A stretch of DNA of 64,000 nucleotides, from assembly GCA_021732415.1 (NCBI GenBank), contig JAKFVC010000008.1:1-64000 (forward strand), read 5' to 3'. The notes beneath the pieces were generated by a model, which searched no databases, was not told the origin of the DNA, and was given only the letters and a program-made list of their open reading frames with translations. The first letter of the stretch is position 1. The number at the start of each line of letters is the position of its first letter. Position numbers and translations under genes: made by a program. Source of the DNA: Planctomycetaceae bacterium (lineage in GTDB: Bacteria; Planctomycetota; Planctomycetia; Planctomycetales; Planctomycetaceae). Shown piece by piece: positions 1,715-59,121 of the stretch.

Positions 1715-4700
1715 CTACGACAGATGCTCAAAGTTCGTAATCTTCGACCTGATCTTCTTGGGCAACGGAGTCGTCGGGGCATAGTCCGCGATCGACAGCG
1801 TGCTCGCCGCGAAGGTATCGTCGCCGGCCCCGCCGTCAAACTGGAACTTATTAGCGGAACTGAACGCCGGGCAGGCCGCATTGGCCCCCACGGTCAGCGA
1901 ATCGTTTCCACTACCCAGCGAGATAAACACCGAGTCGTTATAAACCGCCGTTCCGCCAGCACCGCCAGTCCGGACGATGTCGCTGCCGATACCCGTGTCG
2001 ATGCGTGTGACACCATTAACCGTCAGCGTCCCAGCGGGTGTGCCGCCCAGGTCCAGCGTGTCGACGCCGCCGCCAATATCGGTGTAATTCAGACTGCCAA
2101 CAGTCAGATTCTGCAGGGCGACCGTGGAGTTACCCGTCCCATCCTGGATGACAAACGCCTTGGCGACTGTGACTAACTGGTTATTCCCCACGGTGAGAGT
2201 GGTATTCCCGCCACCCACCTCGTACAGGTTGACCCCAGTTCGTCCACTAATCGTCGTGCGGTTCATGACGACCGCACGCGTTCCGGACGAGGCCTGGTTG
2301 GTGATCTGCAAGTTGCCAGAGATCGAGTTCAACGCACCCGCACCGAAGGTCACCGTCGTCCCACCCGCTCCGGTAGCGCCATTGGCGATTGTCAGATTGC
2401 CAGCGGCATTCGCGCCCAGCACCGTCAGGTTATCCACGCTGACGCTGGTGGTGGCAGCCGTCCCATTGGTGAGGGTCACATTACCCGTCACGCTCACCAG
2501 GCTGGTGCCCGCCGAGCCCCCGACGGTCAAAGTGTTCGAGGTCGTCGCGCCACCATTCGTCAGCGTCAGGCCCTTCGTTGCGGAGAGCCGTGTCGCCGTG
2601 ATGGCATTCGTTCCCGTACTCAAACCATTCGTGGCAGCGACCAGTCCCGTGAAGGCGTTACCGGTCGTTCCAAGGAAGGAGATGCTATTGGCCGGGCTGG
2701 CACCATTCGTAAAGGTGGATGATGTCGTACCGCTATTACCCAGGCTGTTGACCGTGATGGCATTGCTGGTCGTCGCGATCCCATTCTTGACGGTCACATT
2801 CCCGACAGACCTCAAACCACCGGTCGTGCCCACCAAACTTACAGAATTCGTCACATTGTCGCCGTTGGTGATCGATGTCGTCCCGCCAATGACTTGCGCC
2901 GTCGTCGTGTCGATCGTCACCGCAGCCGCCGCGCCTGTGCCGCTACCGTTGATGACGGACACCAGCCCGTTGACGGCGGTATTGCGAATCGCAACGGTAT
3001 AGCCCGTCGCAGTCGAGGGTTGCTTGATATTGAGATCGCCCGTGATCGTATTCGGGGCGTTCGAGGCATTCTGTCCCAGCCTGACCGTCTGGCCTCCCGC
3101 GCCGTTGTTGGTCAACGTGACATTGCCATGTGCCGTGAACCGGTCGAGATCGATCGTCTGAGCACCGGTCCCCGCACCGTTATCGACACTGACATTCAGA
3201 GCACTAAACGTATCGTTGGCCGCATTACTGCCAAGCCGCACCGTATCGTTCCCGAGGCCTCCCACAACATTGAGGCTGCCCGTCATCGTCAGTCCCAGGG
3301 TCGGAGTCACGGCCTGCACGGTCGTCAGAATATCGTCGCCCGCACCCAGGTTGATGTTGACGTCGCCGCTGTCCAGGGTGGCACTCGCGGTCAAGCCGCG
3401 CAACACGACGACATCATTCTCCCCGTTGGTATTAATCGTCAGAGTCCCGGTAACCAGATAGGGTCCGGCACTCTGCCCGTTTGTTCCGGCGCCGATGAAA
3501 TTCGTATAACCATTTCCGGTCAGCGTGACCGAATTCGTGTTGCTGAAATCGACGATGATGTCATCGACAAAATCGGTTCCGGTCAGCAACAGGTTTCCGT
3601 TCGCCGTATAGTTCACAACAATCGGCGGCGGCAGAACCGTCAGCGAAACATCATTCCCATTGCCCGGAGCAGTGGTACTTTCCACGTACGAAATCCGCAA
3701 CCGCTCGCTCGAGACATCATAGATGCCACCTTGCGGATGGCCGTTAAAGATCCCACTGATCGCGCCCGCAGGAACCTGGTTAATAATGACAATGGTGGCA
3801 AAAGTCGGCAGATCGATGCCCGCACCGATGGACGGCGTCAAAGTGGCACCTGCCAGAGTGATCGCCCCATTCACGACCAGCCGATCGTAATCAGTCCCCG
3901 CCGCCGTGACGCCATTCACATCCACATCCAGGAAGGCCGTCGACGCGAACGTCAAAGCTCCGGTCGTCAACGTCCCGGGCCCCGCGATTCCCGGAGCCAG
4001 CCGCGCCGTGTTGTTGACATTGACCGCTCCGGCAATAGTGCCAATGCCGCGGAGAATCGACGAGTTATTGACGCTCACCGCACCCGTTCCGCTGTTCGTG
4101 CCGTTAATCTGAACGGTACCGGCATTAATGTTGGTCGCACCAGAGTACGTGTTGGCCGCATTGTTTAAGATGAGGACGCCAGCACCAGTTTTAGCCAGAG
4201 CGGCACCGGCGCCGCCCGAGATCACGCCCGAGAGTGTCAGTTGCGTTCCAGTCACATCAACAGTGGAACTCGCCGCCAACGCCACGGTTCCGGCGAACGA
4301 ACTGGTGCCGGTCGAAGTCTGCAACGTACCGCCATTGAGGCTGACCGGTTCCGTTGCCGCATACGCGACGTTTCGCAAATCGAGTGTGGCTGTCGCATTC
4401 ACGACGGTATTGGCCCCGACTGCTCCCAAAGCACCACTGGCGGTTACCGCTAAAGTACCGGCACTAATGGTTGTCACGCCGGCATAATCGTTCGCAGAAT
4501 TGGACAGGATCAGTGTGCCGGCGCCACTCTTGGTGAGAGCCTGCGTCCCTGTGACCTGACCACTTAACGTGAGTTGTGTGCCAGTGACATTGACCGTTGC
4601 TGCTGCCGTGCTGAGGGTCACCGTTCCGCCCAGGGCACTCGTCCCGGTGGAATTTCGCAGGGTTGTCCCGTTCAACGTCAGATTGGCAGTGGTGTCAGAG

Positions 4701-7123
4701 AAACCCGCCAGATCCAGGAGAGCATTCGTATTCACCGTGACCGCGGTCGCATCGGGGAAGACGTTGCTGGCCCCCAGGCTGAACGTACTGGAGCTCGTCC
4801 CGTCCTGCAGAATCACAGTGGGCGTATTGAATGCTGCGTCAAAGCTGTAGAAGGTTGTCGAATCGCCACCATTGGTGTTGATGGTCAGCGAAGTGGTCGG
4901 CGCCGCGAAGTCCACGAATTCACCAAGTGACGAGTCGATCCGCGTGAACGCTCCGGCAGCGTCGGTGACGGTGATCGTCTCCGCACCGCCGGTGAATGTG
5001 AAGACGCGATTGGCGGCGTTCACGTTGTCGGTGATTGGTTCGAGTCCCGTGTAGGTAATCGTTCCGGCAATCGCTCCCGTCAGCGTCATCGAGCCGTCAT
5101 TATTATTAGTAAACGAGTGTGTGACAGTCGTCGTCGTTCCACCAATCACCGCGAGTTTGTCACCAATAGCGGAATTGCCGCCGCCGTTGAAGGTGATCCC
5201 ACCCGCAGGAATGATATTCCCACCCGACAGGTCGATGGTAAAGGTGTCGTCCCCTGCTCCACCATTCACGATGATCGGCAGGGCGTTGGCCGGACGTGAA
5301 TCAACCAAGGCCGCGCCGAGATAGGTCTCGAGATTCGCGCCGTTCAAGACGATGCGGATCGAATCACTATTGCCCGTACCGGTAATTGTCGTCATGGTCG
5401 GGCTGGCGTCGAGGAGCAACACATTCGTCAGCGTTACGGTGGCCAGCGTCGGACTCGTGGTATTGGCGATGGCGGTCGGTGTGCCAGCGATCTTGAGGTT
5501 CTGCAAGGTCACCGCGGTGGCCGGATTCACGACCGTCACGCCGACTCCCGCACCACCATTGACGAAGGTGTCGGAAGGACTATTGCCCACCAGCGAAAGA
5601 TTTTTGTTGACCGGCACATTCTCAGAGTAGGTTCCGGCTGCCAGGTTGACGGTACCGCCCGCTGTTACCAGTCCAATCGCTTCCGCAATTCGACCAGTCG
5701 CTCCTGTTTGTCCTCCGGCAGCCACGACCGTCAACGAAGCGTAGCTCGGTTGAAATCCGGTGGAACCCGAGGTGTCAGTGGCGAGGTTTAGATACGGAGT
5801 ATAGTCCACCAATCCGGAGATCAACCCGGCGACTGTTGCAGCGACGCTCGAACCATACCAGTTGCGTGAACCGTTCATCGTGCCCGTGCCGCCAAAGCTG
5901 AACGCTTTGCCGGTCACGTTGACGAACGAGTTCTCGATGGCATTGATTCCGGATCCAATGACCGTGGCCTGTATCGTCGCGACGCCGAAAGAAACGTTAC
6001 TCACGAAATTGTTGGTGAAGTTGACACCGGTCACTTGATCGATCGCCGAACCACGTGCACTCAGATCGACCCCCGCGTTGCCCCCATTGGGAGCAAACCC
6101 ATTGAGAGTGTTGTTGGTGATGTTGATGCCGGTCTGAGCTCCGTAGCTCCCCAGCCCTGACGTTGCCTGTCGCAAGTCGATCAGGGGGCTGCTCACTGCG
6201 CTGCCTGTCCGTTGAATGGTGTTGCCATCCACGTTGACATAGCTCAACCGGTCAAGCGCGATTCCGACACCCAGGTTGTCACCGCTGATGTTGTTCCCAC
6301 TGATGATGACCGGCGTGACGCGGCCAAACGTGTCAGGATTGACGAAGATACCCGTGGAAGCATTGGAAAATCCGAATGTCGAACCCGCATTCGCCACGAT
6401 CGTGTTGTTGGTGATCTGCACTCCGGCTTCCGAACCACCGGCCGGACTATGAACGACGATGCCGGCGGACCGGGGATTACCATTCGAATAGCCGACTTCA
6501 ATCGTGTTATTCGTGACCACCACCGACTGCGCTTCGGTCTGCAATCCCCCAGTAATTCGGAGCCCACCAGCCCCTGCCTGGCCATCGAACACAAAGGTAA
6601 AGCCACGAATCGTCGTACCGCTTGTGTAAACGATGATGTCGGCGGTCGACGCATCACTCGCGATGCTGGTTGGTCCAGGATTCAGATTATTGGCATTCGT
6701 CTGCGGAATGTAAGTGGTCGATCCGTTCGTCTGAACGGTAAAACTTGAGTTCCAGCCACCGCTCAGCGTCAGGCCGACAAGGTTCGGCGAAGGCCCTGCC
6801 GAACTTCCAATACCGAAGCCTTTGTCGAAAGCAGCCTGGCTGTAGGTGCCCGCCGCGACATCGATTGTGTGAGGCCCGGTGGCATCCAGGTTGGCAACAT
6901 CCAAAGCTTTCTGAATGCTGCGGTAGGGAGTCGCGATCGAACCGTTGCCGGTCGTGTCATTACCGGTCAACGCCACGTAAAACGTCGACAAAACGATGCG
7001 TTCTTCCAGGCATTCCAACCAGCCCACGTGACTCATTCTGCGGCGTTTCTTTTCCAGACTTTTGGTCGCAGACTGGCGGACAAACGTCTTCGAAAGTGCG
7101 GCAAGCCACGAATTCAAACGCAT
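1715..7123 (-). CDS. Giant beta-helix surface protein with LEPR-XLL-type N-terminus (paralogue A)
   Basis: An 1802-aa predicted surface or matrix protein; no enzymatic role is seen. Residues 1-35 are basic, then LECLEERIVLS matches the LEPR-XLL-type motif typical of giant planctomycete surface proteins. About residues 47-500 form a right-handed beta-helix region opening with a DUF1565-like segment (YRSIQKALDVA). The middle has autotransporter-associated beta-strand units (GTLILSNSANDYAG is one example). The last 600-700 residues are low-complexity Gly/Asn/Thr-rich beta repeats ending in NFEHLS. N-terminal and C-terminal parts closely match the 2589-aa neighbour at 7983-15752, but the middles differ. 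The ATG at 7123 has GAGAT about 9 nt upstream. A sigma-54 type promoter and conserved leader lie upstream and a strong terminator downstream, so it is probably monocistronic. Confidence 0.88.
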   Translation of the reverse strand: MRLNSWLAALSKTFVRQSATKSLEKKRRRMSHVGWLECLEERIVLSTFYVALTGNDTTGNGSIATPYRSIQKALDVANLDATGPHTIDVAAGTYSQAAFDKGFGIGSSAGPSPNLVGLTLSGGWNSSFTVQTNGSTTYIPQTNANNLNPGPTSIASDASTADIIVYTSGTTIRGFTFVFDGQAGAGGLRITGGLQTEAQSVVVTNNTIEVGYSNGNPRSAGIVVHSPAGGSEAGVQITNNTIVANAGSTFGFSNASTGIFVNPDTFGRVTPVIISGNNISGDNLGVGIALDRLSYVNVDGNTIQRTGSAVSSPLIDLRQATSGLGSYGAQTGINITNNTLNGFAPNGGNAGVDLSARGSAIDQVTGVNFTNNFVSNVSFGVATIQATVIGSGINAIENSFVNVTGKAFSFGGTGTMNGSRNWYGSSVAATVAGLISGLVDYTPYLNLATDTSGSTGFQPSYASLTVVAAGGQTGATGRIAEAIGLVTAGGTVNLAAGTYSENVPVNKNLSLVGNSPSDTFVNGGAGVGVTVVNPATAVTLQNLKIAGTPTAIANTTSPTLATVTLTNVLLLDASPTMTTITGTGNSDSIRIVLNGANLETYLGAALVDSRPANALPIIVNGGAGDDTFTIDLSGGNIIPAGGITFNGGGNSAIGDKLAVIGGTTTTVTHSFTNNNDGSMTLTGAIAGTITYTGLEPITDNVNAANRVFTFTGGAETITVTDAAGAFTRIDSSLGEFVDFAAPTTSLTINTNGGDSTTFYSFDAAFNTPTVILQDGTSSSTFSLGASNVFPDATAVTVNTNALLDLAGFSDTTANLTLNGTTLRNSTGTSALGGTVTLSTAAATVNVTGTQLTLSGQVTGTQALTKSGAGTLILSNSANDYAGVTTISAGTLAVTASGALGAVGANTVVNATATLDLRNVAYAATEPVSLNGGTLQTSTGTSSFAGTVALAASSTVDVTGTQLTLSGVISGGAGAALAKTGAGVLILNNAANTYSGATNINAGTVQINGTNSGTGAVSVNNSSILRGIGTIAGAVNVNNTARLAPGIAGPGTLTTGALTFASTAFLDVDVNGVTAAGTDYDRLVVNGAITLAGATLTPSIGAGIDLPTFATIVIINQVPAGAISGIFNGHPQGGIYDVSSERLRISYVESTTAPGNGNDVSLTVLPPPIVVNYTANGNLLLTGTDFVDDIIVDFSNTNSVTLTGNGYTNFIGAGTNGQSAGPYLVTGTLTINTNGENDVVVLRGLTASATLDSGDVNINLGAGDDILTTVQAVTPTLGLTMTGSLNVVGGLGNDTVRLGSNAANDTFSALNVSVDNGAGTGAQTIDLDRFTAHGNVTLTNNGAGGQTVRLGQNASNAPNTITGDLNIKQPSTATGYTVAIRNTAVNGLVSVINGSGTGAAAAVTIDTTTAQVIGGTTSITNGDNVTNSVSLVGTTGGLRSVGNVTVKNGIATTSNAITVNSLGNSGTTSSTFTNGASPANSISFLGTTGNAFTGLVAATNGLSTGTNAITATRLSATKGLTLTNGGATTSNTLTVGGSAGTSLVSVTGNVTLTNGTAATTSVSVDNLTVLGANAAGNLTIANGATGAGGTTVTFGAGALNSISGNLQITNQASSGTRAVVMNRTTISGRTGVNLYEVGGGNTTLTVGNNQLVTVAKAFVIQDGTGNSTVALQNLTVGSLNYTDIGGGVDTLDLGGTPAGTLTVNGVTRIDTGIGSDIVRTGGAGGTAVYNDSVFISLGSGNDSLTVGANAACPAFSSANKFQFDGGAGDDTFAASTLSIADYAPTTPLPKKIRSKITNFEHLS

Positions 7124-7170
7124 GACGATGATCTCGGTCTAGTAGTGTGGGTTAGACAGGACAATTTGCG

Positions 7171-7246
7171 AAGTTGACCGTTCGGTGACAGTCTGACCGG
7201 CAGCGCCCTGCAAGCGCAGCCTCCCCCCGTGCGGGGTGTGAAGCCG
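7171..7246 (-). promoter_or_regulatory. Conserved structured leader, copy 1
   Basis: Starting 13 nt after the -12 element, the predicted transcript begins GGCTTCACA. It can form a CCCC-GCAC-GGGG hairpin (7225-7236), then a longer stem GGCTGCGC/GCGCTGCC with a 7-nt loop (7199-7221), then CCGGTC-GACTGT. The copy upstream of the pilin-like gene (16444-16518) has the same order of elements with different paired bases, which suggests selection on RNA structure. It could affect stability, translation or protein binding; I do not recognise a known riboswitch class. Confidence 0.55.
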
Positions 7247-7257
7247 AAGCTTCATAT

Positions 7258-7285
7258 GGCAAATTGAATGCCTGAAACGATGAAC
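7258..7285 (-). promoter_or_regulatory. Sigma-54 type promoter of giant protein A
   Basis: On the minus strand AGGCATTCAATTTGCC has GG (7272-7271) and GC (7260-7259) exactly 10 nt apart, the hallmark of -24/-12 promoters (consensus TGGCAC-N5-TTGC). The predicted start is near 7246, about 120 nt before the ATG. TGTTCA just upstream is also shared with the copy at 16532-16545. Confidence 0.6.
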
Positions 7286-7550
7286 ATACTGATCACCGCA
7301 GGCTTTCCGAAAAGTTTCCGCCGGCGGGCGCGCCGCGCGAGGATCCTGCCCGAACTAGGCCTCGGCGCTGCCAAATCATCTGCCGCCCGGGGGATCTCAT
7401 AGCAGCAGACGGCGGAACCCGGTCCGAATGACACTCAGATGGACAGGGCTGTCCGCTCGAAGTGTTTACAGATTTGTATGGATTGTGAAGAGAACGATAA
7501 CCAGGGTTTACAGGCTACAGGCGTCGGCGGTGCCGTTCGTCTTCCCGCAG

Positions 7551-7982: not shown

Positions 7983-10900
7983 TTAGTTCGTCAGCAGGTG
8001 TTCGAAATTCAGAATCTTCGACTTCACCTTCTTAGCCAGAGGTGATCCCGAGTACTCGGCGATCGACAGCGGGCTGGCGTTGAACGTGTCGTCTCCGGAA
8101 CCACCGTCGAACATGAACTTGCTGGCACTGTTGAAGGCTGGGGAATCGGCGTTCGGTCCGATGAACAACAAATCGTTGCCGGCCCCCAGGGCGATGAAGA
8201 CCGTATCGTTGAGGATCGCGGTTCCGGTCGTGGCGATCCGTACGGTATCGCTGCCCGCACCCGTGTCGATCCGGGTCACCCCGTTGACTCGGAACGTGCC
8301 CGCGGTGTCGGCCAAGGCCAGGGTGTCGGTGCCACCACCCAGATCCGCGTAGTTGAAGTTGCCGACCGTCAGGTTCTGCAGGTTCACCGTCGACGATCCG
8401 GTGCCATCCTGCACAACCAGGCCCTTGGAAATCGTCGAGGCTGCCACATTGCCAATCGTCAACGAGGTATTGCCCGTGCCCACTTCGTAGATGTTGACAC
8501 CGGTCCGACCACTGACGGTGGTCTGGTTCATGAGGACCGACCGCGTCCCTGTCGAGGACTGATTGGTGATCTGCAGATTGCCCGAGATCGAATTCGCAGC
8601 GTTCGCTCCGAACGTCAGGCCCGTCCCACCGGCACCAGTTGCCTGGTCATTGATCGTGACATTCCCCACCGCGTTCGCACCAAGGGTCGTCAGGCGATCG
8701 ATGCCGATCGTCGTGGTACCCGCCGTACCGTTGGAGATCACCAAATTGCCCGTGACGGAAACGAGGTCCGTCGCGGCGGCACCGCCGATCGTCATCGCGT
8801 TCGACGTCGTCGCGGTCCCGTTATTCAAATTGATGCCCTTGGTCGACGACAATCGCGTGGCGTTGATCACGTTCGTCCCGGTACTCGCCCCATTGGTTGC
8901 GGTGACCAGTCCCAGGAACGTATTGGCCAGTGCTCCGTTGAACGTGATCGTATTCGCCGGGCTGGCACCGTTGGTGAGGTTGGTCGCCGAGTTACCACTA
9001 TCCGTGATGTCCGTGATCGTGATGCCGTTGGTGTTGGTTGCGGTCCCATTCTTAATCGCGATCGAACCCTTCAACTGCAAGCCACCCGTCGTGCCGACAA
9101 TCGTCACGGCATTGGTGAGATTGTTGCCGTTGGTGATCGTCGTCGCTCCATTCACCGATTGAGCCGTCGTGGTGTCAATCGTCACGGCCGCTGCTCCCGA
9201 GCCGCTGCCATTGGTCACGTTCAGGAAGCCTCCGACGCTGGTGTTGTGCAGTCCGACCGTGTAGCTGCTGGCGCTGGCCAATTGATTGATGACCAGGTTA
9301 CCAGTGATCACGTTAGCCGCAATGACTCCCATTGCGACCGTCTGGGCCGCAGAACCACCGTTGGTCAACGTCACGTTGCGAGTCGCTGTCAGGCGGTCCA
9401 GGCTGATCGTCTGAGCGAGGCCCGTCCCCGTATCAATCGTGACGTCACGAGCCAGCAAGGTATCGGTCGCGGTGACACTACCGAGCGTGACGTTGTCCGT
9501 CCCGGCTCCGCCGATGATCGACAGATTACCGGTCATCTTCAGACCGGCGTTGAGAGTCGGAGGAATCAGACTGTCGATGGTGGTGATCGTGTCGTCATCA
9601 GCTCCCAGATCGATCGTCAAATCCCCGCTGTCATAAGTCGCATTGGCACCGACGCCGCGGATCAGCACCTTGTCATTGCCGTTGCCCAGCTTGATCGTGA
9701 TGTTGCCCGTGACCGTGTACGGCCCGGCCAACTGGATGTTGGACGTCAGCGGACCAGTGAAGTTGGTCACATCGTTGCCGATCAAGGTCAGCTGGTTCGT
9801 GCCGGTGAACGACAATGTCAAGTCGTCGTTCCAGCCTGTGCCATCCAGAGTCAGATCGCCATTGACGCCTTGCGTGACGAGAATCGGTGGCAGCATGACG
9901 GTCAACGAGACGTCGTCGCCGTCACCGAAGAAGCTGGGGGTCGATGGACTGGAGCTGGGTTGGTGGAATTCCTTGTACGACACGCGGAGACGTACACCAT
10001 TCACATTGATGACCGAGCCTTCCGGCTGACCGCCAAACGTTCCAACGACTGCCCCGCCCGAGAGATTATTGATGATGGTGAAGCGATCGTAGGGATGTGC
10101 TGCATAGCTGATCGTCGGCACCAGCGTTGCATTCCCCAGGGTCACGGTGCCATGCACTGTGAAGTTGTCGAAGTTCGTTCCTTCACCCGTGGGGCCGGTC
10201 GCATCTGGCGGCGTATAGCCGGTCAGTTCGATCGGCAGCGTGTCGTTGGCGGTCAATGTCAGCGAACCCGAAATATCCACCTGTCCCGGGCTGGCCCCGG
10301 CGGCAAGTGTGACAGCCTTGTTCGGGGCTGCTCCCAGGTCCACGCTTTCCGTGTACGACCCTGTCAGAGCGTGAATCGTGCCGACTGCGGTCAGCATGTT
10401 GTAAGCTTCGGTAATCGCTGCCACACCCAGTTGCGAACCACCCGCATGGGCGGTGAGATCCGAGAAATCGCCTTGAAAGCCAATCCCCACCAGGTTCGTC
10501 CCGAGGTTGAGGTACGGTGTGTAGTCGACCGTTGCCGGCGAGCTGATCCCGGCGGTAATCGTGGCGAAGACACTCGTGCCCCAGTAGTTGCCCGAGGCAT
10601 CGACGGGCGATGCGCTGGTCAACAGGCTGCCGGCACCATTCACCGAGATGCTGTTATTACCCGGAGTCGAGGTGCCCGACACACCCATGTTCAAGGTCCC
10701 GGCGTTCAAGATGGCAGCCTGGGTGAATCCCGAGCTTTCGACGATGACGTTGTTTCGCAACGTCACAACGCCGCCCCCAATGAAAACCGTGGAGGTCGGG
10801 GCGGCGGTATTGGCATAGAACCCGGTAATACTGACCGTACCGGCGGTCACTGTCAGAGCGGCACCACCGACACCACCGCTGATGGTGACGTTATCGATCG

Positions 10901-13900
10901 TCGCCACGAGGTTCAGGTTCTTCGGGATACCGACGTTCTCACTGAAGGTGGACGCGGCGGTGACATTCACCGTTGCTCCGGCGAGGGCGGCGTCAACACC
11001 GTCCTGGATCTGAGCCGTGTTGTTATTCACGTTCACCGTGGTCGGCGTACCCGTGATGACGGTCGCCGTGACATTGTTGTTGAGATTCAAAATCCCGGTC
11101 GTCAGGAAGTCCGCGTTGCCACCGGTGATGTTAATCGCACCATTGACATTGATCGTGTTGGCACCCGCCTGCAGAGTCAGGAGACCACCGTTGTGAATGA
11201 TCCCCGCGATATCCATCTGGGCATTCTCGGTGATCGACACGGCACCCGTCCCATTATTGACGGTAATGGAACCGAAGACGTTGGCGGTCGTCATGGTGAT
11301 GACGGCACCGGTCAGGTTGGTCGTCCCGGTGGTGACCGTGCCGGCCTCGGTGATATTTCCGCTGACGTCCAGGGTCAGCGTGCTGGCGGTGTTGGCTCCG
11401 GTGAGATTGATCCCGGAATCTTCCTGGATCGAGACGGCACCGGCTGACGTGAAGGTCACGTCGGTCAAGGCCGTGGTCGTCCCGGCTCCGCCAATCGTGA
11501 TCGCCGTCCCGGAGAACGTGGCCTGCGTGGACACGGTCAGGCTGGTCGAACTATCGGTAATGGCCCCGGTGGAAGTCAAACTGAGGCTGTTCGCCGAGTT
11601 CGAACCCGCGAGGTCGGTCGCCGAATCTTCCTGAATGGTCACCACACCTGCGGAGTTGAAAGTCAAACTACCGTAGTTGGTGGCCTCACCACCGCCACCC
11701 AGAGTGATCGTCGCCGCCAGGAAGCTGGCATTATTAGTGACGGTGACGTCACCGGTATCAGTGATTGTGCCGGTCGCTGCCGTAATCGCCAATGAGGTCA
11801 GCGTCCCTGTGGCCGCGAAGTTGATATCGTTGATGTCATTCAGAACCACTGCGGTTCCGGACACAATCGTCACCAGACCCCCGAAGTCATCCGCCGCATC
11901 CAGAGTGATGGGATTGGCACCGGCCGTCAGGCTGGTGGTTCCCGTGATCAAGACGGCACCGCTATCGGTGATCGCCCCTGACGTGACAATCAAATTGCCG
12001 CTGATCGTAGATGCCCCGAGATCAATGCCATTCACGTCATTCAGGGTGACGGTATTGCCGTTGGTAATAGCCACCGTACTGAAGTTGTTGCCGGCATTAT
12101 TGAGCGTAATGTTGTTCGCTGCGCCGGCAGCCAACGTGCTGGTTCCGGTCACTGCCAATGTTCCTGCCCCACTATCAGTGATTCCGCCCACGGTTGTGGT
12201 GATGCCCAGAGTGCCACCGACAGTGGTCGCTCCCGCACCTGTGAAGTCCACCAATCCCGTCGCCGTGACGCTCAGGAGCCCCGACACGGTCGAGGTCCCC
12301 AGGTTGATGGCATTCGTGTCGACCAGGGTCACGTTGTTGCCGCTGGTGATGACGACTGTGCTGAAATTGTTGCCGGCGTTGTTCAACGTGATGTCATTGC
12401 CAGCTCCCGCGGCCAACGTGCTGATACCCGTTACGGCCAATGACCCTGCGCCAGTATCGGTAATTCCGCCCACGGTCGTCGTGATGCCCAGGGTACCACC
12501 CACCGTGCTCGCTCCCGCACCCGTGAAGTCGACCAATCCCGTCGCCGTGACACTCAGGTTGCCCGACACGGTCGAGTTCCCCAGGTTGATGGCATTCGTA
12601 TCGACCAGGGTCACGTTGTTGCCGCTGGTGATGACGACTGTGCTGAAATTGTCGCCAGCGTTGTTCAACGTGATGTTATTTCCAGCCCCGGCCGCCAGCG
12701 TGCTGACACCCGTTACGGCCAATGACCCTGCGCCACTATCGGTGATTCCGCCCACGGTCGTCGTGATGCCCAGCGTACCACCAACAGTGGTCGCTCCCGC
12801 ACCTGTGAAGTCGACTAATCCCGTCGCCGTGACACTCAAGTTACCCGTCACGGTCGAGGTCCCCAGGTTGATCGCATTGGTATCGACCAGGGTCACGTCA
12901 TTACCACTGACGACCACCACCGTGCTGAAATTGTTCGCGGCACTGTTCAACGTGATGTTGCCGGCCGAAGTGGCAGTCAGGGTTGTTGTGCCCGTGGCAA
13001 CCACCGCGTTGGCCTGGTCGATCGTTTCGGCACTCAAGGTCAAGGCATCGACGCTCAGGCCAGCGGAATTCAGATGAATGACATCCGTCCCGCCCTGGCC
13101 GTCGATGGTCAGGTCCGTGGTGGCATTGAGCGTCAAGGTCCCGACGGTAATCGTCTGAGCGGTGGTCGCTCCCATGTTGATGGTGATCGAGCCACCGACC
13201 GCAGGGATCGCAAAATCGGTTTGCTCAAAGGTCGGAACCGTGGAGTCCAGTCGAGCCGTGACCCCGGCGACCAGATCGGCCAGGGTAATCGTCGCATCAG
13301 CCGTATCCGGCAGATTGAAGATAATGTTGGTCGGCGTACCGTCGTTGGTGATCGGCTCGAGACCCGTGTACGTGATCGTATGATTCGTACCGTCATTCAG
13401 CACGATCGAGCCATCGTTGGCGTTCGTGTAGTTGTAGGTCTGAGTCGTAAAGGAGCTGCCCACATTGATCAGATTGATCTTGTCGAAACCGGCACCACCG
13501 TTGAAAGTCAGCCCGGTCAGCGGAATGGGGTCACCACCCGCAAAATCCAAGTTCAAGGTATCAGCGTCACTGCTGCCGTCGATCGTGAGATTCTGGATAC
13601 CAGCCAAAGGCCGGGTATCCACCACAACGCCGTTGATCAAGGTTTCGAGCGTACTCCCCACAACGCGCAGTTGGTAGGTATCAGGGCTTCCGTCAGGAGT
13701 GGGAGCCGGGATGCTGACGACCGCTTTGTCGACACGGATCGCAACGTCGTTGCCATCTCCACCGTGATAGGTAATCCGAGCCGTCTTGCCCGATCCACCG
13801 AAGTTGGACGAGACGATCGCACCGTCCGCCAGACCGACAAACGTCCCTGTGACCGCGTCCGCGGCGCCATCGTTGTCGATCAGGATGATCTCGGCCCCAT

Positions 13901-15752
13901 CGACGGGGACGAATGCGCCCACCGTCAAACTGAGCGTCGCGGTGGTCCCGAGTGCCACAGTGCCATTCACGTCCAACAGGTCGTGGCTCGCCACGCTGCT
14001 GACATCGAGTGCCAGAGTACCGGCCCCTGTGAATTGCAATCCATCTGACGTCACTCCACCGCCATTGTTGACGGCATCGCCGATCACCAGCGTGCCAACC
14101 GTACCCGTACCAAGCGCGTTCAATGTTCCTACGCCGGCATTTAGGAATCCATTCACTGTACCGCTGAGATTCGCCACGGCACCGGTTGCCAGGTTCAGCG
14201 TTCCGACTTGGCCGCTGATGGCCTCGGTGTAGGTACCCGAAGTGACAGTGACAGTTCCGGTGTAAATCGGCGGAGCCTGCGTATTTTGGAGATCAATAGC
14301 CTCTTGAATACGCCCGGCAGCCCCTGTTTGACCGTTCACGCCTACGACAGTTAGATCAGAATAGTCGGGTTGGAAGCCGGCCGAGCCAGAAGTGTCGGTA
14401 CCGAGATTCAAATAGGGAGTGTAGTCGACAGTCCCGGTGATCAAGCCGGTCACAGTGGCGAGTACGTTCGAACCGTACCAATTCGCAGAACCATTCATGG
14501 TCCCGGTTCCGGTGAAGTAAAGCGCTTTGGCCGTTATTCCGGTGAAAGAATTTGCCGTCGAATTGATTCCTGACCCTAATACATTTGTTAGCCCGCCTAC
14601 GACACCGTATGCCAGATCCCGGACGATGTTGCCAGTAATGGTAACTCCGTTCACCTGCTGGATCTCATTGTTGCGCGTGCTCAAGTTGATACCAATACTT
14701 CCCGCGGCCGAGCCATCGAGCCCATCGAGTGTATTGTTGGAGATAATGATGCCGGTTTGAGGAATTGACGAATAGGTATCAACCCCAGTCGAATGCTTGA
14801 GCGCAATGAGCACCTGACTTACTGCAGTCGAGCCAGTTCGCTGGATCGAATTACCATCGACCGTCACGTAACTTGCCTTATCAATTGTGATGCCCGTTCC
14901 CAGATTGGGCCCACTGATATTGTTTCCGCTAATGATGATCGGAGTAACGCGACCCGGTGTCGTTTCGGGATTGACTAAAATACCGGTTGAATCATTATTG
15001 AACAGATAAGTCGATCCGCCATTTGCCAGAATCGTGTTATTGGTTACTTGAACTCCCACGGCCGTGCCATCGTTGTGAACACTGATCCCGGCGGGCGGCG
15101 GTGTATGAACAACGATTCCGACAGACCGAACTCCTGAATTCGAATATCCTACCTCAACGGTGTTTTGCGTAATCAGCGTGTACTGGCCTTCCGACAACAA
15201 GCCACCGCTCTGACGCGTCCCGCCATCTCCCAGTTGTCCGTCGAAGACAAACGTGAATCCGCGAACGGTCACGTGGTTGTTGTAGATCGTGATGTCTTGA
15301 GTGAAGGGCGATGGTGAGGAATTATCGACGTTCGTCTGAGGTAAATAGACCGTCGTTCCGAACGTTTGGGTTGTAAAGTTGGAATTCCATCCAGCATCAA
15401 TTGTTAGACCATCTAAATTGTCAACATAGCTGGCACTACTGCCAATTGAGAATCCGTTGTCCAGTCCGGCTTGGTTGTAGGTGCCGGCCGCAACATTAAT
15501 CGTGTGCGGGCCGGAACTATCGGATCCGGCCGCCGTGAGCGCTTGCTGGACGGTTCGGAAAGGGTGTGTAATATCGCCCACATTCAGATTGTCGCCTGTT
15601 GTCGCGACATAAAAAGTCGACAAGAACAAGCGGTCTTCCAGACATTCGACCTGTTCAATGCCAGTCCAAGAGCGGCGTTTCACACGAACAGAACTTGATA
15701 TTTTCCGCAAGGCAGACTTGGAGAACAGCGACAGCCAGGGGGTGAGACGCAT
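7983..15752 (-). CDS. Giant beta-helix surface protein with LEPR-XLL-type N-terminus (paralogue B)
   Basis: A 2589-aa predicted surface protein. The start is set at 15752 because MRLTPWLSLFSK aligns with MRLNSWLAALSK of paralogue A; the open frame upstream to 15998 has no counterpart. VECLEDRLFLS is the LEPR-XLL-type motif, followed by a beta-helix region matching A (HTINVAAGTYNQAG against HTIDVAAGTYSQAA). The centre, absent from A, has 94-residue near-identical tandem repeats with DTNAINLG and ATGLVDFTGAG, then further Thr/Asn/Gly beta repeats. The C-terminal part again matches A and ends NFEHLLTN. No enzymatic motif was seen. The pilin-like gene lies 317 nt upstream on the same strand, so they may be cotranscribed. 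Confidence 0.85.
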   Translation of the reverse strand: MRLTPWLSLFSKSALRKISSSVRVKRRSWTGIEQVECLEDRLFLSTFYVATTGDNLNVGDITHPFRTVQQALTAAGSDSSGPHTINVAAGTYNQAGLDNGFSIGSSASYVDNLDGLTIDAGWNSNFTTQTFGTTVYLPQTNVDNSSPSPFTQDITIYNNHVTVRGFTFVFDGQLGDGGTRQSGGLLSEGQYTLITQNTVEVGYSNSGVRSVGIVVHTPPPAGISVHNDGTAVGVQVTNNTILANGGSTYLFNNDSTGILVNPETTPGRVTPIIISGNNISGPNLGTGITIDKASYVTVDGNSIQRTGSTAVSQVLIALKHSTGVDTYSSIPQTGIIISNNTLDGLDGSAAGSIGINLSTRNNEIQQVNGVTITGNIVRDLAYGVVGGLTNVLGSGINSTANSFTGITAKALYFTGTGTMNGSANWYGSNVLATVTGLITGTVDYTPYLNLGTDTSGSAGFQPDYSDLTVVGVNGQTGAAGRIQEAIDLQNTQAPPIYTGTVTVTSGTYTEAISGQVGTLNLATGAVANLSGTVNGFLNAGVGTLNALGTGTVGTLVIGDAVNNGGGVTSDGLQFTGAGTLALDVSSVASHDLLDVNGTVALGTTATLSLTVGAFVPVDGAEIILIDNDGAADAVTGTFVGLADGAIVSSNFGGSGKTARITYHGGDGNDVAIRVDKAVVSIPAPTPDGSPDTYQLRVVGSTLETLINGVVVDTRPLAGIQNLTIDGSSDADTLNLDFAGGDPIPLTGLTFNGGAGFDKINLINVGSSFTTQTYNYTNANDGSIVLNDGTNHTITYTGLEPITNDGTPTNIIFNLPDTADATITLADLVAGVTARLDSTVPTFEQTDFAIPAVGGSITINMGATTAQTITVGTLTLNATTDLTIDGQGGTDVIHLNSAGLSVDALTLSAETIDQANAVVATGTTTLTATSAGNITLNSAANNFSTVVVVSGNDVTLVDTNAINLGTSTVTGNLSVTATGLVDFTGAGATTVGGTLGITTTVGGITDSGAGSLAVTGVSTLAAGAGNNITLNNAGDNFSTVVITSGNNVTLVDTNAINLGNSTVSGNLSVTATGLVDFTGAGASTVGGTLGITTTVGGITDTGAGSLAVTGISTLAAGAGNDITLNNAGNNFSTVVITSGNNVTLVDTNAINLGTSTVSGLLSVTATGLVDFTGAGATTVGGTLGITTTVGGITDSGAGTLAVTGTSTLAAGAANNITLNNAGNNFSTVAITNGNTVTLNDVNGIDLGASTISGNLIVTSGAITDSGAVLITGTTSLTAGANPITLDAADDFGGLVTIVSGTAVVLNDINDINFAATGTLTSLAITAATGTITDTGDVTVTNNASFLAATITLGGGGEATNYGSLTFNSAGVVTIQEDSATDLAGSNSANSLSLTSTGAITDSSTSLTVSTQATFSGTAITIGGAGTTTALTDVTFTSAGAVSIQEDSGINLTGANTASTLTLDVSGNITEAGTVTTGTTNLTGAVITMTTANVFGSITVNNGTGAVSITENAQMDIAGIIHNGGLLTLQAGANTINVNGAINITGGNADFLTTGILNLNNNVTATVITGTPTTVNVNNNTAQIQDGVDAALAGATVNVTAASTFSENVGIPKNLNLVATIDNVTISGGVGGAALTVTAGTVSITGFYANTAAPTSTVFIGGGVVTLRNNVIVESSGFTQAAILNAGTLNMGVSGTSTPGNNSISVNGAGSLLTSASPVDASGNYWGTSVFATITAGISSPATVDYTPYLNLGTNLVGIGFQGDFSDLTAHAGGSQLGVAAITEAYNMLTAVGTIHALTGSYTESVDLGAAPNKAVTLAAGASPGQVDISGSLTLTANDTLPIELTGYTPPDATGPTGEGTNFDNFTVHGTVTLGNATLVPTISYAAHPYDRFTIINNLSGGAVVGTFGGQPEGSVINVNGVRLRVSYKEFHQPSSSPSTPSFFGDGDDVSLTVMLPPILVTQGVNGDLTLDGTGWNDDLTLSFTGTNQLTLIGNDVTNFTGPLTSNIQLAGPYTVTGNITIKLGNGNDKVLIRGVGANATYDSGDLTIDLGADDDTITTIDSLIPPTLNAGLKMTGNLSIIGGAGTDNVTLGSVTATDTLLARDVTIDTGTGLAQTISLDRLTATRNVTLTNGGSAAQTVAMGVIAANVITGNLVINQLASASSYTVGLHNTSVGGFLNVTNGSGSGAAAVTIDTTTAQSVNGATTITNGNNLTNAVTIVGTTGGLQLKGSIAIKNGTATNTNGITITDITDSGNSATNLTNGASPANTITFNGALANTFLGLVTATNGASTGTNVINATRLSSTKGINLNNGTATTSNAMTIGGAAATDLVSVTGNLVISNGTAGTTTIGIDRLTTLGANAVGNVTINDQATGAGGTGLTFGANAANSISGNLQITNQSSTGTRSVLMNQTTVSGRTGVNIYEVGTGNTSLTIGNVAASTISKGLVVQDGTGSSTVNLQNLTVGNFNYADLGGGTDTLALADTAGTFRVNGVTRIDTGAGSDTVRIATTGTAILNDTVFIALGAGNDLLFIGPNADSPAFNSASKFMFDGGSGDDTFNASPLSIAEYSGSPLAKKVKSKILNFEHLLTN
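12080..12925 (-). repeat. Three 282-bp tandem repeats inside the giant gene
   Basis: Sequence starting CTGAAATTGTTGCC recurs at about 12078, 12360, 12642 and 12924, giving exact 282-bp spacing (94 codons). The units are near identical, which points to recent amplification or gene conversion. The frame is kept, so repeat number can change protein length without disrupting it. Confidence 0.85.
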
Positions 15753-16069: not shown

Positions 16070-16387
16070 CTAGTTCTCGACGCCACCATCAACAGTGGCC
16101 GTGCAGAGTTGGAAGGTGTCGGCGACTTGATTGCCGACTTCGCAGAAGTCTTCCACATCATCGAAGACGGTCCCGGCAACGCTGGCCGAGTGACCGGTGA
16201 GACCTGAGTAGCTGTAATCCTGATTGATGTTGCCAATCGCGTCGGCGATGTCATCCAGTTCGCTGGTGATCGAGTTGCGGAGGGTATTCAAACCAACCAG
16301 AAGTCCCAGAACCAACATCGTGGCGATGAGCACGAGTTCCGACGAGACAATGAATCCCGCTTCGTCTGACATGAATTTCTGAAACAT
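16070..16387 (-). CDS. Flp/type IVb pilin-like small protein
   Basis: A 105-aa protein with one N-terminal hydrophobic segment. MFQKFMSDEAGFIVSSELVLIATML resembles Flp-type pilins: a short hydrophilic leader, an acidic pair, a Gly, then Glu within the first turns of a long hydrophobic helix (about residues 15-36). Flp pilins are cleaved by TadV/PilD-type peptidases and assembled by Tad machinery; no tad genes are in the window. The C-terminal half has two Cys (in EDFCEVG and QLCTATV) that could form a disulfide. Upstream it has the sigma-54 type promoter and the same structured leader as giant protein A, which ties its expression to the surface island. A pseudopilin or adhesive minor pilin is possible. 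Confidence 0.65.
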   Translation of the reverse strand: MFQKFMSDEAGFIVSSELVLIATMLVLGLLVGLNTLRNSITSELDDIADAIGNINQDYSYSGLTGHSASVAGTVFDDVEDFCEVGNQVADTFQLCTATVDGGVEN

Positions 16388-16443
16388 GAAAAACTCTCCG
16401 AAATGCGAACAACTCTGGCAGCATGAATGGAAGTTGATTCACC

Positions 16444-16518
16444 GGATTCGACCCTTCCACAACAGTCGGACCGGAAGCGCACAGATGGCGCGACTTCCTC
16501 CCTGAGGGATGTGAAGCC
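16444..16518 (-). promoter_or_regulatory. Conserved structured leader, copy 2
   Basis: The predicted transcript opens with GGCTTCACA 13 nt after the -12 element, as in copy 1. It then has a CCC-TCA-GGG hairpin (16500-16508), a stem of GGAA and GCGC with GCGC and TTCC (16473-16498), and CCGGTC-GACTGT. Against copy 1 the paired bases change together (GGAA/TTCC for GGC/GCC), while loops differ freely. Confidence 0.55.
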
Positions 16519-16531
16519 AAAGACAGCTCAG

Positions 16532-16558
16532 GCAAATTGGATGCCGGGAATGGTGAAC
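16532..16558 (-). promoter_or_regulatory. Sigma-54 type promoter of the pilin-like gene
   Basis: On the minus strand CGGCATCCAATTTGCC has GG (16545-16544) and GC (16533-16532) 10 nt apart. The upstream TGTTCA is shared with copy 1. The predicted start is near 16519, about 130 nt before the ATG. Sigma-54 control of pilin genes is well known in other bacteria. Confidence 0.6.
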
Positions 16559-16559
16559 A

Positions 16560-17025: not shown

Positions 17026-17241
17026 GAATTCCCCGAAGGGGATACGCATCATAGCCCAGGGTTGCCCGCTCTGCGGGCTACCCTGGGTATCCAATCCATA
17101 TTGAACCCTACCCTGAAAGGGTTGCGTATGAAGACGGAACCCCTTCAGGGTACGAGAACCTCGTGGACCACTTACCCAGGGTAGCCCGCTGGCGCGAGCA
17201 ACCCTGGGCTATGTTGCATAACCCCTTTGGGGTATTCATTC
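17026..17241. repeat. Large nested intergenic palindrome, CCCAGGGT family
   Basis: Arms of about 40 bp at 17050-17089 and 17173-17213 are near-complementary, each a hairpin around AGCCCAGGGTTGCCCGC. They are flanked by an outer pair built on CCCCGAAGGGG and CCCCTTTGGGG, and the centre has another inverted pair (ACCCTGAAAGGG and CCCCTTCAGGG). Confidence 0.8.
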
Positions 17242-17698: not shown

Positions 17699-19405
17699 TT
17701 ACGTCGCGTCGAACGGAATGGTCTTCAAGCCGCCCGTCCCAAAACTGGTGTCGAGCTGGCCGTCGGTATCCAGGCGAGCCACCGCAAAGTCGGTGTTCGC
17801 CGGATCGGTCCGCAGGGCGTGTCCAAACAGGACGATCTTGCCGTCGGGTTGCAGCACGATGCCGTTCGCCACGTCGTTGTCGCTGCCACCCATATTGAAG
17901 GCGATACTCTTCTTGCCATCGGTGGAGAAGTTGGTATCGAGTTCTCCGACGGACGTCAGCCGGGCCGCCGCGAAATCGAAGTCGCCGGTGGCGCTAATCT
18001 GGGCCAGGCCCGACAGGACGATGCTGCCATCCGATTGAATGGCCACGCCGGTGGCCTGATCCTCGAGACTCGCCCCCAGGTTGAAGGGGATCGTCTTCAT
18101 GCCGTCGCCGCTGAAGGTCTTGTCCAGCGAGCCGTTCTTTTTAATCCGCGCGATAGCAAAATCGCCATCGCCGTCGACCGAGGAAGCGGAACCCGCCACG
18201 ACAATACCGCCATCGGATTGCAGGGCCACAGACGTCGCCCGGTCATTTCCAGTGCCGCCCAGATTGAAGGCGACCGTCTTCTTACCATCGCCGCTGAACG
18301 AGCGATCGAGGGTTCCGTTCGTGGTGACACGAGCAATCGCAAAATCGTCGTTGCCAGTACCGCTGGCCTGGGCATAGCCCACGACCACGATCCGGCCATC
18401 GGGTTGAATCGTCACCGCGGCGCCGCGGTCATCGCCGGCGCCGTTGTTATTGAAGCCGATAAACTTGCGGCCGTCACCGGTAAAGCTGGTATCCAGCGAA
18501 CCGTCCGTTTTCAGGCGGGCCAGGGCGATGTCGTTATCGCCTAGCTGGGCTTTCTGGCAGTATCCCACCAGCACAATTTTTCCATCGCTCTGAATGGCGA
18601 CTCCGGTTGCTCGATCATCGCCCGCACCACCGTAATCGAAGGCCACGATGGCCTTGCCGTCACTGCTGAATGTCGTATCCAGCGCACCGTCGGTATTCAG
18701 ACGCACCACGGCGAAATCGAAGTTGCCCAGACCGCGTTGAGCATAGCCGCCGACGACAATCTTGCCGTCAGACTGCAATGCCACGCAGGTCGCGATATCC
18801 TGATCCAGGCTGAGATGATCGTCGGCATCCCGGCCACCCAGATCAAACGAGATGATCTTCTTGCCGTTGGTGCCAAACGACGTATCCAGCGAGCCATCCG
18901 CGTTGAGTCGCGTGACGCCGAAGTCGTAGTTTCCGTAGGTATCAATCTGCACCGCACCGACCAGGATCATCTTGCCATCAGGCTGCAAGACCATGCCCAG
19001 GGCCTGATCGGTATCGATCGAGGTAGAGGGAGTCTCGGTGGTGCCATCCACAGTCGTGGTGGAGGTGGACGAAGTCGTGGTATTGCCGTCAGCGTCCGTG
19101 GTTGTGGTGGTCACCGTAACGGTCGTGGTCGGATTGCCGTTGGAATCCACACCATGCGTCGTGGTCGTCGTGCTGGTGGTCCCGGCGACGGCCGCTGTTT
19201 GTTCATCCGATGACGCCGAATTCGGGTCTGTCGGATTCGCGCCCGACGTATTGGTGGCCGACAAGAGCTGCCGGTTCTCCAGGAATTCGACGGTCACTTG
19301 CCGAGTCGCGGTCTCTTCCGAGTTCCGCTTGCGTTTCGGTGCTCCGGATAACCAGCGACCGACCGAATCGTACCATGAGTCTGCGTGGGAATGGGGACGT
19401 GACAT
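17699..19405 (-). CDS. Delta-60 repeat protein with LEPR-XLL-type N-terminus
   Basis: A 568-aa secreted or surface protein. The ATG at 19405 has GAGGT 9 nt upstream and gives MSRPHSHADSWYDSVG; the open frame extends to 19690 without support. VEFLENRQLLSA near residue 50 is the LEPR-XLL-type motif. A Thr/Ser-rich linker follows, then seven delta-60 repeats, each of the form QPDGKIVVxGxA...DFAxxRLxxDGxLDxSF, spaced about 50-55 residues. Seven such units would suit a beta-propeller, which is inference. No catalytic residues were recognised. It lies downstream of the inverse-autotransporter gene on the same strand, separated by a 655-nt repeat-filled gap, so it is probably transcribed separately. 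Confidence 0.85.
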   Translation of the reverse strand: MSRPHSHADSWYDSVGRWLSGAPKRKRNSEETATRQVTVEFLENRQLLSATNTSGANPTDPNSASSDEQTAAVAGTTSTTTTTHGVDSNGNPTTTVTVTTTTTDADGNTTTSSTSTTTVDGTTETPSTSIDTDQALGMVLQPDGKMILVGAVQIDTYGNYDFGVTRLNADGSLDTSFGTNGKKIISFDLGGRDADDHLSLDQDIATCVALQSDGKIVVGGYAQRGLGNFDFAVVRLNTDGALDTTFSSDGKAIVAFDYGGAGDDRATGVAIQSDGKIVLVGYCQKAQLGDNDIALARLKTDGSLDTSFTGDGRKFIGFNNNGAGDDRGAAVTIQPDGRIVVVGYAQASGTGNDDFAIARVTTNGTLDRSFSGDGKKTVAFNLGGTGNDRATSVALQSDGGIVVAGSASSVDGDGDFAIARIKKNGSLDKTFSGDGMKTIPFNLGASLEDQATGVAIQSDGSIVLSGLAQISATGDFDFAAARLTSVGELDTNFSTDGKKSIAFNMGGSDNDVANGIVLQPDGKIVLFGHALRTDPANTDFAVARLDTDGQLDTSFGTGGLKTIPFDAT

Positions 19406-19584
19406 GATGGGCATACCTCGTGCCGGGGGTGGACACCCCGCTGGGACTTTTTTTAAGGCAGGAATGGAAAGGCGAGGAGCAGGAAAGGTTGTTCGGGGAA
19501 TCCCGATCGGAAGTGGCAGGGGCCGGGAATCTACTACAGACTCCAGAATGAGGCAATACCAGTTTTGTCTTGATTGGAGGCAAC

Positions 19585-19937
19585 TTACAGCCGCTAACTG
19601 GTGGAGAATAATTCTTAAGATTCTGGATGACTGTGTCACAGTGAAAGGCAGAATTGCCATCTGTTGTCGCCCCCGTTGGGCTTGCCCCAACGGAGCGGTG
19701 ACTGGCCAGCTACTAGAGAGAAACGTTCTGGACCCTCAACGCGTGGTCTCCGATGCCCCCTGCCGCCGTGAGCGAACCGTGGTCACAGCAGCGACGGGCT
19801 GGCGGCAGGGGGCATCGGAGACATAAAGGTTGAGAATTCAGCAAAACTCACTGTTGGGTAGCTGGCCAGTCAGCGCTCCGTTGGGACGAGCCCAACGGGG
19901 GCGTTTTCCAATTGCCCCCACCAAATAGCGACTGCAC
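19585..19937. repeat. About 340-bp palindromic element, copy 1
   Basis: A 236-bp core (19668-19903) is bounded by CGCCCCCGTTGGGC and its exact reverse complement. It contains an inner palindromic pair built on TCTCCGATGCCCCCTGCCGC. The reverse complement of the second copy (core 38355-38590) matches it along the whole core and into flanks on both sides, ending near CACCA-ATAGC. No coding frame is evident. It has the look of a MITE or other non-autonomous element. Confidence 0.85.
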
Positions 19938-24599: not shown

Positions 24600-24984
24600 G
24601 AATGGCTCCAACCAAGTGGCGGGGGGAGGCACGCGGTGGTCGGGGTTCGCGTTCCGGATCGAGATGCAGAGCCCAAAGGAAGGGGTAGTGCGGACTATCG
24701 CACTTGTGACTCTTTTTCGGACTGTAGGCCTCGTTACGGTTAGTTAAACTGGTAAAACTTTGCCACTTTTTCTGGAAACTCCGAAAATACCGGTGGTAGG
24801 GTGGCCGTCAGGTTTGGGTGCGGGACGCAGCGGATTCCGTAAGTCGTTACGTATTAGGCGATAAGGCGCATTCTTCGCACATCACTCAATGTTCGACATG
24901 TCGCATTCCACTTATTTTCACTGCGCGCCGTATTCCGCGCTGTCGCCCGATTCGATCACGGTGCGGGTTGGAATTCAGCAGCGC

Positions 24985-58893: not shown

Positions 58894-59121
58894 GCTGACA
58901 CCCCTATTGGCAGAGCGTCGTCTTGTCTTCACCGGGTACGTCGCACCTCGTCCGGGGCCATTCGGCCAGTACTGCGTCTATGTTATCGGGCAGTGAGGTC
59001 GCAGTCCAACTTGGGCCTATCCTACGGCGGGATGCTGCTATTTTGGCCAAACGCCTTCGGTTGCTACAATGTGAGCCGATCAAGGATGTGAGCGGCTCAC
59101 CGGGAATGTTGGGGTTACGAA

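Follow-up and report, generated by a model that had tools for sequence, protein, structure and literature searches.

The nearest known regulatory logic is that of the PEP-CTERM sigma-54 regulon with PrsR/PrsK, in which a sigma-54 box and a conserved element stand before many surface genes (Haft et al. 2006, PMC1569441). A predicted sigma-54 regulon described in 2025 (PMC12316311) is reportedly enriched for COG2165 (type II secretion), with a smaller share in Planctomycetia, and the main text of that paper holds 0 occurrences of 'Flp'. Among the top-ranked open-access literature, we found no paper on the leader described here or on planctomycete sigma-54 Flp pilins.

The locus of interest lies in a 64,000-nucleotide stretch of a Planctomycetaceae genome (the window), which carries two minus-strand blocks, at about 7163-7287 (copy A) and about 16436-16559 (the pilin copy, P), aligned over about 118 columns. 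An earlier note had seen one and the same block before giant gene A and before a Flp-like pilin gene, and the comparison agrees: the local alignment score of the two copies is 46, whereas 300 mononucleotide shuffles averaged 9 and never exceeded 14. We read the block as promoter plus 5′ leader belonging to a family of Flp-like (Tad) pilin genes in one planctomycete genus; by this reading, to which we give a probability of roughly 0.77, gene duplication has spread a sigma-54 pilin module. On inspection, both copies carry GGCAT-N-CAATTTGCC with the spacing GG-N10-GC, and GGCTTCACA begins 13 nt past the GC, exactly as had been reported. The string GGCATNNAATTTGCC has only two zero-mismatch matches in the window, which are the boxes of copies A and P. 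The combined pattern of box, spacer and GGCTTCACA matches at two places in the 9.87 Mb genome (reversed-pattern control, 0) and, with a slightly looser box, in 0/58 further relatives. Exact GGCTTCACA is present in only 2 of the 11 leaders described below, copies A and P; copy A has CTTCCATTCA, the 3′ block, in degenerate form or not at all. The features are collected in Table 1.

Table 1. Coordinates of the genes, promoter boxes, leaders and predicted hairpins within the window.
Feature	Position	Strand	Remarks
Giant gene A	1715..7123	-	1802 aa, autotransporter-type (PATR) repeats
Promoter-leader, copy A	7171..7276	-	Model built without A; model positions 7-112 of 134
Predicted hairpin H1, copy A	7219..7244	-	GGCTTC..GGAGGC, inner CCCC..GGGG; H1-region z -2.85
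Sigma-54-type -24/-12 box, copy A	7258..7272	-	GGCATTCAATTTGCC; GG-N10-GC; gap-free alignment with 10 pilin promoters
Giant gene B	7983..15752	-	ATG at 15752, 2589 aa; directly behind pilin
Flp-like pilin gene (P0003)	16070..16387	-	105 aa
Promoter-leader, pilin copy	16423..16550	-	81.2 bits in family model, which includes this copy
14-mer TCAACTTCCATTCA	16424..16437	-	Invariant in the 10 pilin leaders
Predicted hairpin H3, pilin copy	16442..16474	-	CCGG/CCGG + CGAC/GTCG; apical loop with TGGAAGG
Predicted hairpin H1, pilin copy	16493..16517	-	GCTTC..GAAGT, inner TCCC..GGGA
Sigma-54-type -24/-12 box, pilin copy	16531..16545	-	GGCATCCAATTTGCC

Giant A follows its leader with no pilin between the leader and the start codon. 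Giant B is possibly co-transcribed with the pilin, and a sequence comparison of the stretch between the two genes found no second leader. The coding regions behind the two leaders had been taken to be unrelated, which proved wrong once giant B was included: it is a paralogue of giant A, the N-terminal parts sharing 57% identity over 498 columns and the C-terminal parts 56% over 776 (overall range 56-59%). Shared descent thus accounts for both window copies. The four-fold sites of the two giants are identical at 50/169 and 96/278, against 0.31 by chance, yet leaders A and P are 0.70 identical over columns 1-116. PEP-CTERM models gave no match at E<=0.001 to giant A, giant B or the pilin. A whole-genome model search placed no leader before the more distant giant paralogues (C44 of this genome, C29 of G002 and C979 of G003).

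Other features of the window were recorded in passing. A large surface-type gene near the pilin (20061-24632, minus strand) encodes a 1523-aa protein with right-handed beta-helix repeats. The gene at 17699-19690 (minus strand) encodes a Delta-60 repeat protein (TIGR02608, 7 stretches), which carries an N-terminal LExRxLL-like motif; its position beside leader and pilin is, on inspection, kept in G003 (L066). Repeated intergenic palindromic units of the type accctgggt...acccagggt were noticed at 17040-17200, and a Guanidine-III riboswitch (56.2 bits) lies at 58912-58972 (minus strand).

The leader belongs to a family. Of the four genomes of the genus that were searched, three carry it, in 11 copies altogether (seven in this genome, two each in G002 and G003, none in G001), which leaves nine beyond those of the window, five in the same genome and four in relatives. 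A lack of further copies in related genomes, which the earlier note had named as a refutation, was thus not what the search gave. Ten precede pilin-like genes, some of them in Tad operons, copy A being the sole exception. Giant or repeat-protein genes come next behind the pilin in four cases (C24, the contig of the window, C169, C79 and C1, the last with 668 aa). The pilin search returned close copies at 94-99% amino-acid identity in C169, C74, C79, C1 and C335, the C335 gene running off its contig and matching over 92 residues; this genome therefore holds at least six pilin copies at 94-100% identity, one of them cut off by its contig. The copies in congeners show 96-99% identity (G003) and 86% (G002). 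Upstream of these close copies lie the box and a GGAAGG..CTTCCATTC element, with AGAAGG instead in G002 C132. A more distant pilin match in G002 C272 (70% over residues 3-72) also carries the box and the GGAAGG element.

Pattern and model searches delimit the family. GGAAGG-N12..30-CAACTTCCATTC occurs six times in this genome, each time before a pilin (reversed control, 0), and ten times in 59 genomes, nine of these before pilins of this genus; the match in G009 sits inside an open frame and was rejected as a leader. Exact TCAACTTCCATTCA has seven matches in this genome, six of which are pilin leaders. The seventh (C246) was also rejected, there being no pilin behind it and a long open frame around it. 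The spacing between GG and GC is 12 in 11/11 leaders, as counted with a search pattern that allowed one nucleotide of play, and the boxes align without gaps; the distance from GC to GGAAG is 74-79 in 11/11, and the loop is 17 nt in 9/11. When copy A was withheld and a sequence model was made from the other ten leaders, it matched A at 30.4 bits (E 2.2e-6 over the whole genome). Copy A is thus a true member of the family, one that lacks an intact 3′ block and a pilin. With stricter filters and 19 candidates scored per genome, the leader model gave no further match above 20.2 bits in 170 family genomes. The suggestion of a mobile module was dropped, as no convincing copy outside pilin and giant cassettes turned up in those 170 genomes. 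That one regulatory module serves several surface-protein genes is, by contrast, supported.

The neighbourhoods point to Tad pili. On inspection, a second pilin-like gene and then a CpaB-like gene come behind the pilin of C74, G003 C431 and G002 C132; the models for these two were run on G003 genes only, where the CpaB gene matched RcpC (E 3.3e-21) and TIGR03177 (E 4.8e-39). In C335 the pilin is divergent from a TadA/VirB11-type ATPase and a T2SSF protein, the ATPase scoring over the cut-off for T2SSE and, with the TadA model TIGR03819, 343 bits, under the cut-off of 373. The gene order of G003 C240 is, on inspection, that of the window: a P0006-like repeat protein, leader, pilin and the start of giant B. 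The P0003 pilin had no match to Flp_Fap at E<=5, so that 'Flp-like' refers to gene context and the short N-terminal hydrophobic form; the second pilin reached E 0.036 with Flp_Fap, below the cut-off. Genome G001 has Tad-type pilins in C6 (L069), the closest 67% identical to P0003, with neither the leader nor a scoring sigma-54 box. Control of the pilins therefore seems to differ within the genus.

The sigma-54 promoter consensus is TGGCACG-N4-TTGCW. Scored against it, the boxes of 10/11 leaders reached 16.0-17.0 and that of C1 14.2. The genome contains one rpoN gene by the Sigma54_DBD model (213.5 bits). The Sigma54_activat model matched 30 times in the genome, 27 of them over 60 bits, and it also rang in 14/14 control genomes, so that only strong matches count. 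Boxes were likewise sought at pilin loci of other genera, taking the best pilin locus, one per genome, with our own genus left out. A box scoring at least 16 within 250 nt was present at 13 of these 25 loci, against 0/25 on the opposite strand, 1/25 for the reversed control, and a mean of 0.47 (maximum 3) in dinucleotide shuffles; 12/25 had none at the threshold used. The loci considered (L035-L060) are 26 of at least 36 non-genus genomes with a pilin match, and L049, with less than 150 nt of upstream sequence, was left out of the count. When all 45 pilin matches listed were taken, the count was 15 against 1. Within 60 nt upstream of the 13 other-genus boxes, no shared 6-mer above chance was found. 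A predicted sigma-54-type promoter at the pilin leaders, as had been claimed for the block, is well supported by these box counts.

One might read GGCAT..TTGCC instead as a palindrome (GGCA/TGCC) that forms a hairpin or serves as an operator. The corresponding stem folds in both window copies, and copy A with its box folds better than 197/200 shuffles (z -2.09). Yet just four leaders (A, P_C24, C169 and G3C240) retain the palindrome; GGAAT or GGTAT with TTTGCA and similar stand in the remaining seven, whereas GG-N10-GC persists in all 11. We regard a palindrome in place of the promoter as very improbable.

We compared the leader, from the predicted start to ATTCA, with coding and upstream DNA at the core Tad operon. 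Between this genome and G002, the leader is identical at 97/99 positions and the sigma box at 19/19, compared to 33/43 four-fold sites of the pilin, 21/39 of the second pilin, and 95/144 positions far upstream. The pattern against G003 is similar, with 97/99 for the leader, 18/19 for the box, 46/50 for the pilin four-fold sites, 30/44 for the second pilin and 125/155 far upstream. Identity climbs at the box and continues through the leader. In the window cassette, leader identity did not rise above the synonymous sites of the pilin: C24 against G003 C240 gave 82/96 for the leader, 43/51 for the pilin four-fold sites and 126/157 far upstream, and C24 against C169 gave 79/97, 43/52 and 98/152, respectively. 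Thus, these alignments show purifying selection on the predicted transcribed leader at the core operon only. The pilin four-fold sites of the window cassette may have been homogenised by gene conversion; between C24 and C169 they are identical at 26/26 in codons 36-92 and at 10/18 in codons 1-35. The pilin copies at large (window 16070-16387; L061-L065) show four-fold identity of 28-56% over codons 1-35 in 14/15 pairs, and from 16/24 to 26/26 (C24/C169) over codons 36-92, with 25/26 for C24/C79. Gene conversion acting on the part that encodes the mature pilin would be expected to leave this pattern of apparent concerted evolution within the gene.

The leader may act as RNA. Minimum-free-energy folds contained H1 (GCUUC..GAAGC type), H2 (GCGC or GGGAC type) and H3, which encloses UGGAAGG; the whole-leader fold of the pilin copy retains only the inner stem of H1. 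In the same copy, CTTCCA (16428-16433) is complementary to TGGAAG (16454-16459), a pairing that could possibly form a pseudoknot. The H-type pseudoknot is known from the preQ1-I and SAM-II leader RNAs. In its fullest form, this reading holds that the leader is a new class of structured cis-regulatory RNA, with H1, H2, H3 and an H-type pseudoknot between the H3-loop UGGAAG and the downstream CUUCCA, which gates the ribosome site of the pilin on a ligand or factor. The high identity of the core-operon leader, above that of the four-fold sites, is in its favour. The UGGAAG/CUUCCA pairs are complete (6/6) in 9/11 leaders and 5/6 in another, and copy A keeps 4/6 with one double change. H1-like stems were counted on inspection in 8/11 whole-leader folds, and the H3 strands have a mean z of -1.31 (10 leaders; copy A, whose z of -27.58 is an artefact of its 3-nt segment, left out). 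In a strand-swap test on six representatives, the native pairing ranked 32/720 for H1 and 47/720 for H3; over all sequences, which are not independent, p was 0.043 for H1 (n=11) and 0.0025 for H3 (n=10).

Other measures stand against such an RNA. Folding energies of whole leaders were not below those of shuffles (mean z -0.20), the regional means were -0.68 for H1 and +0.28 for H2, and the strand swap gave no signal for H2 (native rank 336/720). In the four closest leaders 96.1% of cells pair, but their covariation score was matched by 111/500 shuffles. RNAalifold on the 11 leaders gave 11 pairs, five with a double change, and a covariation term of -0.31 kcal/mol. The arms of the pseudoknot stem are nearly invariant, so that covariation is no test of it. 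The leader of the window cassette, as seen above, is no better conserved than synonymous sites, and the leader was found in one genus only among the 170 family genomes. Neither window leader matched any Rfam covariance model at E<=10, and a known RNA family was set aside on that ground. A leader peptide was rejected as well, given that the spacing between the conserved CTTC block and the ATG does not hold to one reading frame, all three being represented. Taken together, we consider the gating RNA tentative, a possibility with odds well short of even.

The two hairpins that the earlier note described as conserved fared unequally. A, P_C24 and C169 all pair at the CCC..GGG hairpin; in G3C240 one pair fails as aligned and the minimum-free-energy fold shifts register. 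The other helix (GGAA..TTCC against GGC..GCC) was given up: of the two next-closest leaders, C169 breaks it and G3C240 forms it imperfectly. The covariation argument accordingly fails for that helix, and what is left of it, the H1 and H3 ranks set beside the shuffles just mentioned, is marginal. A more specific proposal, that a genus-specific pseudoknot leader RNA transcribed by sigma-54 polymerase gates translation of the Tad pilin and, after duplication, of the giant surface protein, appears unlikely to us. If true, it would place a transcriptional switch and an RNA switch in series on the whole attachment programme.

The UGGAAGG loop lends itself to two further explanations. CsrA-type RNA-binding proteins could dock on the leader and either prevent or permit translation of the pilin. 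This genome has eight matches to the CsrA family above the cut-off, and three congeners have 5-7 apiece, a large set; GGA occurs 35 times in the 11 leaders, against 19.8 +- 4.0 in mononucleotide shuffles (0/500), the UGGAAGG loop and the ribosome site included. This count is inflated, however, by the relatedness of the leaders and by the ribosome site itself, and the stricter A(N)GGA core is not enriched (9 against 7.9 expected, 190/500 shuffles). Copy A and G002 C132 both lack the GGA of the UGGAAGG site. We hold a CsrA landing site to be quite unlikely.

Alternatively, TGGAAG-N20-CTTCCA may be a DNA site at which a sigma-54 activator would bind downstream of the start, by analogy to the flagellar promoters of FlrC and FleQ, where the activator site is so placed. 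The arms are 20 nt apart in 9/11 leaders and lie 74-79 nt from the -12 element, and it would be in keeping with a downstream site that the 60 nt before the boxes of other genera gave no common one. Yet the repeat is asymmetric, with an invariant TCAA..TTCA context on the right arm that is absent from the left, and the arms of copy A are just 6 nt apart. Moreover, a downstream repeat leaves the constraint on the whole leader at the core operon unexplained. This site, too, we judge quite unlikely.

We thus favour the sigma-54 pilin module spread by duplication, for which the following course of events can be envisaged. Sigma-54 polymerase would bind the -24/-12 box and, upon the action of an enhancer-binding protein, transcribe a leader of about 125-135 nt and then the pilin, from a predicted start about 12 nt past the GC. 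At the core Tad operon, the second pilin and CpaB would come next. The pilin and its promoter-leader would have been duplicated to positions before giant and repeat-protein genes, by which pilus and giants would come to share one switch; sigma-54 polymerase and its activator would then turn on the pilin-giant cassettes along with the core Tad operon. Copy A has no pilin, and giant A would be driven directly by the sigma-54 leader. Since a pilin accompanies every one of the ten other copies, its loss from copy A is the simpler direction. The junction before the ATG of A resembles none of B, C169, C79, C1 and the pilin beyond chance, and as it carries no readable trace, the direction of this presumed loss rests on parsimony. 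The leader may add a second, post-transcriptional control through the hairpins around the UGGAAGG loop and the CUUCCAUUCA stretch, and the core-operon leader probably does so.

The module would provide a regulon for a group in which little regulation is known, one in which sigma-54 would govern Tad-type pilins throughout a planctomycete family. It would also be a case of a pilin promoter-leader re-used for proteins of 1,800-2,600 aa. The leader of 100 nt at the core operon, conserved beyond synonymous sites, is a candidate riboregulator of surface attachment.

The comparison with known systems can be made at three levels. As in the H-type pseudoknot leaders preQ1-I and SAM-II, as these are generally described, the loop could pair downstream, shortly before the ribosome site; unlike them, the leader is longer and of different sequence, with no Rfam match and no ligand known. 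At the promoter, the arrangement resembles that of sigma-54 pilin genes such as pilA, in which a -24/-12 box precedes the pilin. It differs from the predicted regulon described in PMC12316311 by its Flp/Tad-type family, its long conserved leader and its multiplied pilin-giant cassettes. In overall logic it appears analogous to the PEP-CTERM site, where a sigma-54 box and an element common to surface genes are read by an enhancer-binding protein and where the second motif is a predicted activator site and the genes carry PEP-CTERM (PMC1569441). Unlike in that system, the conserved part here is the predicted transcribed leader, and the genes behind it are Flp-like pilins and giant repeat proteins.
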